Below the pieces are notes generated by a model. That model had not been told where the DNA came from, did not search any database, and saw nothing but the letters and a program-made list of their open reading frames with translations. The position numbers and the translations under genes were made by a program. 64,000 bases of DNA, from positions 124,001 through 188,000 of the forward strand of contig NZ_JADQDR010000004.1 in the NCBI RefSeq assembly GCF_015694705.1, read 5' to 3'. The stretch is from Pontibacter rufus (GTDB lineage Bacteria; Bacteroidota; Bacteroidia; Cytophagales; Hymenobacteraceae). Below are positions 8 to 28,219 of the stretch, piece after piece (position 1 is the stretch's first letter; the number at the start of each line of letters is the position of its first letter).

Positions 8-36
8 TTTAATTCGTAATTCGTAATTTTTAATTA
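8..36. repeat. AT-rich AATTCGTAATT dispersed repeat
   Basis: Tandem AATTCG/TAATTCG units lie directly before tsf. The same units flank the S23 gene near 26.2 and 26.6 kb, lie on both sides of the panB-rluA spacer, and follow the acyl-CoA carboxylase stop near 49.6 kb. The left side is cut by the window edge, so a partner arm cannot be seen. Confidence 0.6.
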
Positions 37-25052: not shown

Positions 25053-26204
25053 CTACTTATCGGTTACCGTTGCCGCTGCTGCACGGGCCTCCCTGTCTGT
25101 ATCAACATAGTCGTCGTAAGAAGGATGCGCAATATACGCAACTTTTGCCAGACAGCTTTCCAGGATATCGGACATCTGCAGGAAACCGATTTTATCCTTT
25201 AAAAAAGCACTGACGGCTACTTCATTGGCTGCATTCAGGATACAGGGCATGTTGCCGCCTTTTTCCATGGCATCATACGCCAACTGTAAATTCCGGAATG
25301 TCTTTAAATCCGGCTGCTCAAACGTCAGTTGCGGGTAATCCATAAAACTAAAGCGCGGGTAATCCGATTTCAGGCGATTGGGATAACCCAATGCGTACTG
25401 TATCGGCAGTTTCATGTCGGGCAGGCCCAGCTGCGCTTTAAGCGAACCATCCTCAAACTGCACTAGCGAATGCACGATAGACTGCGGATGCACCACCACT
25501 TCTATCTGCTCGTTGCGCAGCCCGAACAGCCACTTGGCTTCTATCACTTCCAGGCCTTTGTTCATGAGCGACGCCGAGTCGATCGTGATTTTGGCGCCCA
25601 TGTCCCAATTCGGGTGTTTGAGGGCCTGCGCCTTGGTTACGTGCCGCAGCTCTTCTGCCGTGCGTCCTCTAAACGGCCCGCCAGAGGCAGTTAGTATAAT
25701 TTTCTCGATAGGGTTGTGAAACTCGCCGGCCAGGCACTGAAAAATAGCGCTGTGCTCTGAGTCTACCGGGTAAATGTTTACACCATGCGCCCGCGCCAGC
25801 TCCGTAATCAGCTGCCCGGCCACTACCAGCGTTTCCTTGTTGGCCAGCGCAATCTGCTTGCCCGCTTTAATGGCACGGATGGTGGGCAGCAATCCGGCAT
25901 AGCCTACCATGGCAGTCAGCACCATGTCTATGTCGCCCATTTCTACTACCGAGCACAGGGCATTGGTTCCGGCATATACTTTGATGTTCTCGTGCTGCAA
26001 TGCGTCCTGCACCTGCTCATACAAATCCTCCCGGGCTATTACCACCGCGTTCGGCTTAAACGCCAGCGCCTGTGCTATCAGCAGGTCAGCATTGCTGTGG
26101 GCAGTGATGACCTCCAGCTCAAAATGCTCAGGGTTGGCTTTTATCACCTCCAGGGCCTGCGTGCCGATGGAACCGGTGGAGCCCAATATGGCGATTCTCT
26201 TCAT
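25053..26204 (-). CDS. dxr: 1-deoxy-D-xylulose-5-phosphate reductoisomerase
   Basis: A 383-residue enzyme of the MEP isoprenoid pathway that converts DXP to MEP using NADPH. The nucleotide-binding motif GSTGSIG is at residues 7-13, the metal and substrate residues are in DSEHSA near 147 and TASGGPFRG near 172, and NKGLEVIEA lies near 210. Length is standard. It is followed by rseP on the same strand. Its ATG lies directly after an AATTACGAATT repeat that also contains the stop of the preceding S23-type gene. Confidence 0.97.
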   Translation of the reverse strand: MKRIAILGSTGSIGTQALEVIKANPEHFELEVITAHSNADLLIAQALAFKPNAVVIAREDLYEQVQDALQHENIKVYAGTNALCSVVEMGDIDMVLTAMVGYAGLLPTIRAIKAGKQIALANKETLVVAGQLITELARAHGVNIYPVDSEHSAIFQCLAGEFHNPIEKIILTASGGPFRGRTAEELRHVTKAQALKHPNWDMGAKITIDSASLMNKGLEVIEAKWLFGLRNEQIEVVVHPQSIVHSLVQFEDGSLKAQLGLPDMKLPIQYALGYPNRLKSDYPRFSFMDYPQLTFEQPDLKTFRNLQLAYDAMEKGGNMPCILNAANEVAVSAFLKDKIGFLQMSDILESCLAKVAYIAHPSYDDYVDTDREARAAAATVTDK

Positions 26205-26240
26205 CCAATTACGAATTATGAATTACGAATTACGAATTGG
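26205..26240. repeat. Right inverted repeat of the S23 cassette
   Basis: Three to four AATTACG units bounded by CCAATT and AATTGG. On the minus strand it contains the stop codon of the four-helix gene and ends just before the dxr ATG. It is the inverted partner of the repeat at 26600-26630. Confidence 0.8.
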
Positions 26241-26601
26241 ACTTATCTTCCAGCTTCGCTTTACTCGTAATGATGATGCTATTCAATATTTTAACTATTT
26301 CCTCACAGTCTGCATGTATACTTTCAAATTGAGGCGCTGCGATATAACCAGTATCACACAACAGCCGCAGCCAATAAGATGTTTCTCTGGCTTCTTTCCG
26401 GGCTATACTCAGCTTATGTATAAAATCGACCGTAGACTGGCCTGCTACAGCCTCCTCGATGTTAGCACCAATAGAAGTTCCGCTACGCAGCATCTGCTTT
26501 GCCAATACAAATTCCTGCTTTTCTTTTTTCAGAAATTCATAAAGCTTCACAACCCGAATAGCGAAAGCATAAGACTTATTAACAATTACATTCTCCTTCA
26601 T
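26230..26601 (-). CDS. S23-type four-helix bundle protein
   Basis: A 123-residue helical protein of the S23 / four-helix bundle family (the 23S rRNA intervening sequence protein group). Family hallmarks are visible: SYAFAIRVVKLYEFLKKEKQEFVLAKQMLRSGTSIGANIEEAVAG, then FIHKLSIARKEARETSYWLRLL. Despite the family name it is not inside an rRNA gene here; it sits between GH3 and dxr. Start and stop codons both lie in flanking AATTACGAATT repeats, as if the gene moved as a cassette. Function is unknown; RNA binding has been suggested for the family. Confidence 0.9.
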   Translation of the reverse strand: MKENVIVNKSYAFAIRVVKLYEFLKKEKQEFVLAKQMLRSGTSIGANIEEAVAGQSTVDFIHKLSIARKEARETSYWLRLLCDTGYIAAPQFESIHADCEEIVKILNSIIITSKAKLEDKSNS

Positions 26602-26630
26602 TCGTAATTAGTAATTCTTAATTCGTAATT
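26600..26630. repeat. Left inverted repeat of the S23 cassette
   Basis: ATTCGTAATTAGTAATTC followed by TTAATTCGTAATT. It supplies the stop codon of the GH3 gene (LAITN-stop) and the ATG of the four-helix gene. It is an approximate inverted match to 26205-26240. Confidence 0.8.
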
Positions 26631-28114
26631 GCCAGCAGGCCAGAGGCCAGGTGGCGGTCGTTGCTCAGGCGCGGCACTTTGTTCTGGCCGCCCAGCTTTC
26701 CCTGCGATTTCATGTAGTTGCGGAACGTGCCTAGCGGCAGCGATGTAATTTTAAGGTTTTGCAGAATGTTGCCTTTTATCAGGTCGTCGTAGTAGGAATT
26801 GAGCTTTTGCAGCTGGCTTTCCAGTTCTTTTTCAAAATTGTCCATGTTAAGCGGCGGACGGGCAAACTCTACCAGCCACTCGTGGTACGACTGCCCCTGA
26901 TTCTGGCTTACGTATGGCGCCACCGTAAACTCTACCAGTTCTACATTGCTGAACTTGGCCATGGTGCGCTGCATGGCTTTTTCCACCTCCTCGCCTATCA
27001 CGTGCTCGCCAAAGGCAGAAATAAAATGCTTGATGCGGCCGCTCACCACCACCTTGTATGGCTGTATGGATGTAAACTTCACCGTATCGCCGATGGCGTA
27101 GCTCCACAAGCCGGCATTGCTGCTTATTACCAGCGCATAATTCACATCAGGCTCCACCTCCCCAATGGTCAGGCGGGTGGGCTGCGGGCTAAAATATTCT
27201 TCGGCAGGTATAAACTCGTAGAAAATGCCCGCATTCAGCAGCAGCAGCAAGCCACGGTCGTTTTGCTCGTTCTGGTAAGCAAAAAAACCTTCGGATGCCG
27301 GAAACAGCTCAATAGAATCCACCTCTTTGCCTACAGATTCGATAAGCTTTTTGCGGTAAGGCTCAAAGTTCACCCCGCCGTATACAAACAGCGAGAAGTT
27401 CGGAAAAATATCCTTTATCTTTTTGCCCGTCTGCCGCATCAGCTTATCAAAGTACATTTGCACCCATGGCGGAATACCCGAGATGAGCGTCATGTCCTCT
27501 TCAATGGTTTCTTCGATTATCTGGTCCAGCTTGGTTTCCCAGTCTTCAATACAGTTGGTTTCGTAGCTGGGCAGCTGGTTGGTGCGCAAATAGCCTGGCA
27601 CGTGGTGGTTGGCAATACCCGACAGGCGGCCGGTTTTAATACCGCCTACCTCCTCCAGTTCGGGGCTGCCCGACAGGAAGATCATCTTGCCATCAATAAA
27701 CTGCGCTTTACCCGTTTCATGCACGTAATTCAGCAAAGCATCGCGGGCGCCGTTAATGTGGTTGGGTATGGAATCGCGGGTGATGGGGATATACTTGGTG
27801 CCGGAAGTAGTGCCCGACGTTTTAGCCAAATAGAGTGGTTTGCCCGGCCAGAGTACATCCGCCTGGCCCTGCTTTACCAAATCAAAATACATAGACAACC
27901 CCTCATAATCGCGCACCGGCACAGCTTTTACATAATCTGCATGACTTTTTATATTTGAGAAGCCATGATCCCGGCCGAAGCGGGTGTGCTGTGCTTTATG
28001 CAGAATCTCTTCAAAAACAGCCTGCTGCGCCGCTACCGGATGCTGCACCCAGCTTTGGTGCTTTTTGTGCACAAAGGCAGCCAGCGGCTTACTCAACAAC
28101 GCTTTTACACCCAT
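26618..28114 (-). CDS. GH3 auxin-responsive promoter family protein
   Basis: A 498-residue protein of the GH3 superfamily of acyl-adenylate-forming acid-amido synthetases. The adenylating P-loop-like motif is KTSGTTSGTKYIPIT near residue 100, with YGGVNFEPYR near 245 and the C-terminal VVSGRIKHFISAFGEHV near 360. Plant members conjugate hormones to amino acids; bacterial substrates are unknown. The ATG at 28114 (MGVKALLSKPLAAF) fits the family; an upstream extension to 28192 does not. Its last codons (AITN-stop) are formed by an AATTACGAATT repeat, so the native C-terminus may have been altered. Confidence 0.9.
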   Translation of the reverse strand: MGVKALLSKPLAAFVHKKHQSWVQHPVAAQQAVFEEILHKAQHTRFGRDHGFSNIKSHADYVKAVPVRDYEGLSMYFDLVKQGQADVLWPGKPLYLAKTSGTTSGTKYIPITRDSIPNHINGARDALLNYVHETGKAQFIDGKMIFLSGSPELEEVGGIKTGRLSGIANHHVPGYLRTNQLPSYETNCIEDWETKLDQIIEETIEEDMTLISGIPPWVQMYFDKLMRQTGKKIKDIFPNFSLFVYGGVNFEPYRKKLIESVGKEVDSIELFPASEGFFAYQNEQNDRGLLLLLNAGIFYEFIPAEEYFSPQPTRLTIGEVEPDVNYALVISSNAGLWSYAIGDTVKFTSIQPYKVVVSGRIKHFISAFGEHVIGEEVEKAMQRTMAKFSNVELVEFTVAPYVSQNQGQSYHEWLVEFARPPLNMDNFEKELESQLQKLNSYYDDLIKGNILQNLKITSLPLGTFRNYMKSQGKLGGQNKVPRLSNDRHLASGLLAITN

Positions 28115-28219
28115 AGAATCCGTTTGTATATGGTAAATATAGGCAGATAAACGTTTATTGCCATCATGCCGGCCATTTTCAGGCCAAAGCAATCCGAAAT
28201 TTCCGGTAAACAGTAAAGC

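Follow-up and report, generated by a model that had tools for sequence, protein, structure and literature searches.

The Avd protein of diversity-generating retroelements is a four-helix protein of S23-like type; it is pentameric and binds nucleic acid. TRAP winds RNA carrying repeated triplets. S23 proteins are also encoded in intervening sequences (IVSs) of 23S rRNA, where they have no settled function according to the Discussion of PMC4990558. The Coxiella IVS, as described in the relevant part of PMC4990558, is about 430 nt long, carries an S23 open reading frame (ORF) and ends in inverted repeats, with a 28-bp terminal stem that is cut by RNase III; heptamers (GACAGAT), noted there in this one IVS, lie before the ORF, near its start. 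Heptamer arrays such as TAACTGA occur before start codons and beside stop codons in Beggiatoaceae, Cyanobacteria and Bacteroidetes. Section 23 of PMC4679880 gives no identified partner for them, and the same source suggests that the binding protein may itself be the mobile element. The terms 'S23', 'four helix' and 'intervening' each occur 0 times in PMC4679880. In the REPIN/RAYT system, as presented in the pertinent part of PMC3116915, each repeat class has a single-copy gene, and the repeats are found beside that gene and as dispersed inverted extragenic doublets with less conserved spacers. No general link between S23 genes and heptamer arrays was found in the part of the open-licence literature that was covered.

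The window, the whole 64,000-nt stretch of Pontibacter rufus DNA analysed here, contains on its minus strand a four-helix gene of 123 amino acids (26230..26601) that a profile search assigns to the S23 family (23S_rRNA_IVP, TIGR02436). The product scores 108.8 bits against PF05635 (cut-off 33.8) and 116.5 bits against TIGR02436. The gene is co-directional with its upstream neighbour, a GH3-type or lyso-ornithine lipid synthetase-like gene (26618..28192, minus strand; NF052613 below cut-off; TTG start in the ORF list), and with its downstream neighbour, dxr (25053..26204, minus strand). Array 1, on the 3' side of the S23 gene (26207..26238), has five AATT cores, at 26207, 26214, 26221, 26228 and 26235; it contains the S23 stop codon (26230-26232) and begins 2 nt from the dxr ATG (26202-26204). 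Array 2, on the 5' side (26599..26630), has AATT cores at 26606, 26613, 26620 and 26627 and an AATG core at 26599 that, in the sense of the gene, includes the S23 start codon (26599-26601). The GH3 stop codon (26618-26620) also lies in array 2, the right arm. The two arms (26206-26237 and 26600-26631) are inverted, 32 nt long and 94% complementary, with 362 nt between them, and both the start and the stop of the S23 gene are within them. These coordinates agree with the sequence-only reading, which had described an S23-type gene between GH3 and dxr with its start and stop inside facing repeats, one holding the GH3 stop and the other ending by the dxr ATG; its left and right are those of the reading direction. 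The make-up of each arm, five AATT-type cores placed 7 nt apart, goes beyond what that reading describes.

Terminal inverted repeats are thus present at this unit as in 23S rRNA IVS elements, and the likeness to the Coxiella IVS, as far as the description in PMC4990558 goes, extends to the S23 ORF, the length and the heptamers near the ORF start. Unlike that IVS, the S23 unit is located between protein genes (here GH3 and dxr), not in 23S rRNA; it has arrays on both sides and many different words, and there are pairs of arrays without an S23 gene. None of six rRNA motifs, looked for as exact strings in a crude scan, is present in the S23 loci examined. The S23 frame has PF05635 as its only profile match, a transposase was not found in the unit, and the two antisense frames that overlap it have no Pfam match above cut-off. 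Within the window, three period-7 arrays score at least 13, two of which are the S23 arms, compared with 0, 0, 0, 1 and 0 in five block-shuffles. The third is a solo array of the word TAATTCGTAATTCGTAATTTTTAATT at 10..35, shortly before an ATG and without an S23 gene; by our own reading, we take the frame after it to be EF-Ts-like and the frame upstream of it to be S2-like.

S23 genes were found in 47 of 50 genomes of the genus (G004, G024 and G043 have no PF05635 match). Among the matches listed, 127 distinct elements were analysed, 108 of them oriented and 19 further ones (locus L226 repeats L005). Their arms have a common architecture of about five 4-nt cores at period 7 or 8, in two arrays that face each other. 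In the 100-nt flanks of the 108 elements, self-match at lags 7, 14 and 21 is 0.405, 0.364 and 0.336, compared with 0.236, 0.243 and 0.269 in control DNA; at other lags it is 0.256-0.295. When at most one mismatch per core is allowed, the 216 genus arms contain five cores in 117 cases, four in 41, six in 22, three in 18, two in 14 and more than six in 4. Shuffled arms have a mode of two and reach five cores in 1 of 216, and the mode is also two when periods 5, 6, 8 and 9 are tried on the genus arms. Exact cores number five in 39 arms, four in 61, three in 42, two in 61, one in 12 and six in 1. Five is the modal number at nine of the ten period-7 sites, the exception being site 1 (four in ten arms, five in nine). 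The length of the lag-7 run, a measure independent of the choice of core, peaks at 31-33 nt, a range that holds 62 of 112 genus arms and 38 of 147 arms of a broader set described below; an array of five cores spaced 7 nt apart covers 32 nt. Period 8 is found at sites 9 and 11 and at many of 20 weaker S23 loci, and five cores are common, not dominant, in period-8 arms (12 of 27 by our own count, 2 of 10 and 4 of 9).

The core varies by locus (AATT, TAGA, GACA, GAGT) and is the same in both arms; between species both arms change. The facing arms of one element match with a score of at least 12 in 89 of 108 genus elements, compared with 29 of 320 mispaired arms and 0 of 108 pieces of control DNA. 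The earlier idea that gene and facing repeats form a recurrent unit is borne out by this match and by the recurrence of the layout in other phyla, whereas AATTACGAATT as a general border of S23 genes is not; the shared feature is the architecture of the arrays.

The broad set comprises 109 S23 loci, the best 80 of 584 matches from a contig scan and 29 from a search by phylum (45 of 61 genomes with an S23 match), and its query favours one subfamily of S23 proteins. One locus was left out for a short flank. In the 108 usable loci the best period is 7 in 97, 8 in 7 and 9 in 2, and the inverted score is at least 12 in 87. Four Pontibacter loci (L229, L263, L286 and L302) and L280, whose upstream arm is masked by a run of N, are included; without these five, period 7 is best in 92 of 103 loci, the inverted score is at least 12 in 84 of 103, and five cores are present in 86 of 173 counted arms. 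After shuffling of the flanks, 12 of the 103 loci still pass the array threshold, one of them with period 7; distant control DNA does so in 18 of 101 cases, five of them with period 7. The record titles name Deltaproteobacteria, Gemmatimonadota, Acidobacteria, Ignavibacteria, Planctomycetota, Clostridia, Nitrospirota, Thermoflexus, SAR202, Verrucomicrobiota, Lentisphaeria, gamma- and epsilonproteobacteria and a CPR genome (the locus with one masked arm). Agreement within arrays is 0.94-0.96 for cores and 0.76-0.77 for spacers, values biased to the core by its being picked as the best four positions. The 7-nt unit common to the arms of one locus agrees at 6.22 of 7 positions, compared with 4.22 for arms from other loci. 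On a tree of 219 proteins, period 7 or 8 changes 9 times, compared with a mean of 24.8 and a minimum of 20 after shuffling, a contrast that is inflated by related rows.

The RNA of the S23 unit is predicted to fold with a z of -3.93, both arms forming one stem. Under a longest-ORF rule, 93 of 108 elements have the S23 gene in the direction of both neighbours; at site 8 it is antisense to both. These features, together with the S23 ORF, the terminal inverted repeats and the Coxiella parallels (28-bp stem, RNase III cut and GACAGAT heptamers), speak for a free-standing relative of the 23S rRNA IVS, that is, a selfish S23 element whose arms would probably pair into an RNA stem for RNase III to cut, so that the element is tolerated in operon transcripts. 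The order of spacers points both ways. It is mirrored between the arms at sites 1, 2 and 3 (site 3 is that of the window), but not at sites 0, 4, 5, 6, 7, 8 and 10 nor at three junctions without S23; for the broad set the signal is weak (1 of 300 permutations reaches the observed value), and for the whole genus set the figure is 39 of 300. A first spacer-order test gave no order effect in any of three sets, and a register test that favoured mirrored spacers was biased, the register having been chosen by score, and is left out of our conclusions. Mirroring at sites 1, 2 and 3, with its weak signal in the broad set, makes copying between arms possible. Mismatches between arms are G-U and A-C in 66 and 47 cases in the genus, 49 and 42 in the broad set and 26 and 30 at the junctions, with no clear G-U excess. 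The mismatch counts and the spacer-order test weaken an RNA stem as the kept feature, although the window's own site is mirrored. Because spacer order is mostly not mirrored and G-U is not clearly above A-C, the data point to shared words more than to a stem maintained at each base. A stem also leaves the period of 7 and the five-core mode unexplained, and we consider the relative of the IVS an unlikely account.

We prefer a reading in which the words are recognized by the S23 protein. Its solved homologues are 2rld (E 3.9e-37) and 2gsc (E 5.1e-05), each a single entry with five chains; the pentamer is predicted from these chain counts. A ring with one word per subunit fits the roughly five words per site, the dependence of spacing on protein lineage, and the sharing of words by both arms in a mostly free spacer order. 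With a probability of roughly 0.5, the S23 four-helix protein, encoded between facing arrays of five 7-nt words, forms a ring of five that binds them, one word per subunit. For a TRAP-like ring one would expect as many words as subunits; what is seen here is the five-core mode and the five chains of 2rld and 2gsc. Like Avd, the protein is of the S23 four-helix type, likely pentameric and predicted to bind nucleic acid; unlike Avd, it has no reverse transcriptase partner found in this genome (PF00078 profile search, 0 of 1). Several points count against the ring. Fewer arms have five cores when the cores must be exact (39 of 216), regularity is lower in period-8 arms, and some arms of the broad set have up to 18 cores. 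If the cores must be single-stranded, base pairing between the two arms would also be in competition with binding.

Flank clustering places the 108 genus elements in 12 orthologous sites, and on an S23 protein tree of 98 rows the site changes 12 times, where 11 is the least possible and 67.4 the mean after shuffling. The neighbours, by our own reading, are operon partners such as odhA/odhB, odhB/lpd, scoA/scoB, tldD/pmbA and mraY/murD. Because the S23 sites are orthologous, recent transposition is not the main reading, and these sequences do not support recent jumping of the unit. At the GH3-dxr junction, 49 genomes with dxr have a near-full-length S23 gene in 10 cases, remnants in about 5 and a clean 35-nt gap in 11, which form one clade. 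The dxr-site genes of G002 and G038 have one in-frame stop each, and the remnants in G036 and G010 are weak matches, judged together with array remains. The presence of S23 at dxr changes 12 times on the dxr tree. This pattern points to loss, decay and perhaps swapping, not to a single fresh jump.

According to the sequence-only reading, the unit may be a mobile cassette that depends for its movement on another enzyme or on the S23 protein. The patchiness at dxr agrees with this proposal, as do sites 1 and 2, which are common to different protein clades, and a copy in G000 (C1:109497-109796; L005 and L226), where a pump gene, which we take to be CzcA/CusA-like, appears to be divided into two frames by an S23 gene whose arrays have period 8. 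However, all 108 elements lie in only 12 sites with a vertical signal, and neither a target duplication nor a precise empty site is definable at the S23 elements, the clean 35-nt junctions being too diverged to place edges; nor does the genome have a PF00078 reverse transcriptase. Of the earlier proposal, the recurrent unit is supported and a recent move is not; an S23-free junction of the kind it asked for is seen in 11 of 49 genomes. We regard such a cassette as distinctly improbable. Separately, in several species the GH3-dxr gaps without S23, in L056, L059, L061, L065, L068 and L071, are about 600-780 nt long and contain a similar stretch around CTTTGGGTTGAGCGCC, which may be another repeat family.

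Facing array pairs are also present without S23, at fixed intercistronic places beside stop and start codons. Three such junctions, which by our own reading are ilvN-ilvC, ccoO-ccoQ-like and transaldolase-like, were followed through the genus; the first was usable in 20 of 26 genomes examined (31 of 50 matched), and for the other two 30 genomes each were examined, of 49 and 50 matched. Both arms have at least four cores in 6 of 20, 15 of 30 and 24 of 30 genomes, respectively (shuffled, 0 of 400). At one junction the words are, by species, TAGA, AATTATG, AATTAGA, AATTACG, AATTAGG and TAATGAG. The mean arm match is 9.9, 11.8 and 16.5 for own arms, compared with 7.7, 7.1 and 9.9 for arms swapped between species. 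Junction words are closer to the genome's own site-0 S23 arms than to those of other genomes (2, 26 and 18 of 2000 permutations at or above the observed value), in a comparison that ignores phylogeny and at the third junction rests mainly on G008 and G030. They can also differ from the resident site-0 words (G020, G023 and G001 at ilvN-ilvC; G030, G028, G003 and G035 at the L194 site).

Some words are dispersed. The TAGA array pattern has 75 matches in G008 and 106 in G030. TAGA arrays are found in all 7 genomes with a TAGA-type site-0 S23 and in 7 of 43 others (own arms of the elements counted), and at least four matches in 5 of 7 and 2 of 43. AATTACG arrays are found in 14 of 15 genomes with an S23 element or remnant at dxr and in 4 of 34 others (own arms counted), and at least four matches in 8 of 15 and 2 of 34; the TAGA and AATTACG comparisons both ignore phylogeny. 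G017 is AATTACG-positive and has no dxr match. Against the ring, the AATTACG enrichment also takes in several of the 15 genomes whose dxr element has AGTT-type arms. Near TAGA pairs are convergent in 14 of 14 cases among 149 matches listed, one being an S23 element; the TAGAT pattern reads identically in both directions, which makes its built-in control void. One near TAGA pair in G008 (L197) surrounds another 128-codon frame. GACA words are hardly dispersed at all, with 10 matches altogether, found in 9 of 50 genomes, which rules out dispersal of every S23 word. Solo AATTACG arrays were also considered as decayed S23 genes and rejected, the best match near six arrays being E 0.076 among the matches listed. 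Two further arrangements were seen. In L202 (G030:C3), at 496-560 and 1987-2051, facing arrays are nested, a TAGA pair outside an AGTT pair, with about 1.4 kb between. In L006 (G000:C14:57901), at 1498-1530, a solo AATTACG-type array lies between tRNA-Arg and tRNA-Pro genes.

Pairs are kept in G004, G024 and G043, the genomes with no PF05635 match (for example, the pair that G024 has at the L190 site, with an inverted score of 20). This counts against the ring; such pairs would reflect recent loss, undetected S23 relatives or a host use without S23. It also suits an explanation by neutral repeats, in which words around intercistronic hairpins become uniform through slippage and through template switching from one inverted arm to the other, and the link with S23 is hitch-hiking. 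The mirrored spacers at sites 1, 2 and 3 are in line with this explanation, as are transitional arrays such as those in L206 (G005:C1) at 474-550 and 828-894, where a single array goes over from TAGA to GACA words, perhaps an intermediate stage of drift. Against neutral processes, S23 genes of many phyla are bordered by arrays alike in period and in their mode of five cores, period clusters on the protein tree, and at most sites the order of spacers is not copied between arms. We consider neutral repeats a very unlikely explanation.

Returning to the pentameric S23 ring, we infer by analogy that it would form with its five-word sites a partnership like that of REPIN/RAYT. As in the account of PMC3116915, there is a distinct resident gene for each repeat class, and the repeats adjoin the gene and occur as dispersed inverted doublets, the latter seen here for TAGA. 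Unlike in that account, the protein is PF05635 and not a tyrosine (HUH) transposase, the arms are arrays of direct repeats and not palindromes, and one of the three words tested, GACA, is without dispersal. The heptamer arrays beside start and stop codons resemble the TAACTGA arrays of PMC4679880, and TAACTGA units occur on the other strand of the CAGT arrays found at S23 site 1; unlike those arrays, the pairs here have an S23 gene inside, and in the part of PMC4679880 concerned no partner gene is named.

In the proposed mechanism, the ring would read the cores on single- or double-stranded nucleic acid. Word spacing would mirror the ring, and protein and words would drift together. S23 may be self-regulated, its start codon being inside its own array, and the array over the dxr start region may let the ring damp or separate the expression of operon partners. 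A repeat population and one resident gene per word would then work like REPIN/RAYT, with no transposase found; dispersal of the pairs by the ring would be the least certain step. We put forward, more tentatively, that the heptamer-repeat arrays of bacteria have their missing partners in the S23 four-helix proteins. These proteins might be pentameric rings throughout the bacteria, with one four-letter word per lineage; their five-word sites would lie as facing pairs between the genes of operons and would include orphan arrays, TAACTGA among them. The 23S rRNA IVS might be a special case of a unit that landed in rRNA.

The five-core, period-7 or -8 layout around S23 genes across phyla ties S23 proteins to heptamer arrays, and this tie makes both sides testable by one binding experiment. 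If the reading is true, a repeat family would be kept without a known transposase, with the number of words equal to the number of subunits, and it would possibly represent a layer of operon control.
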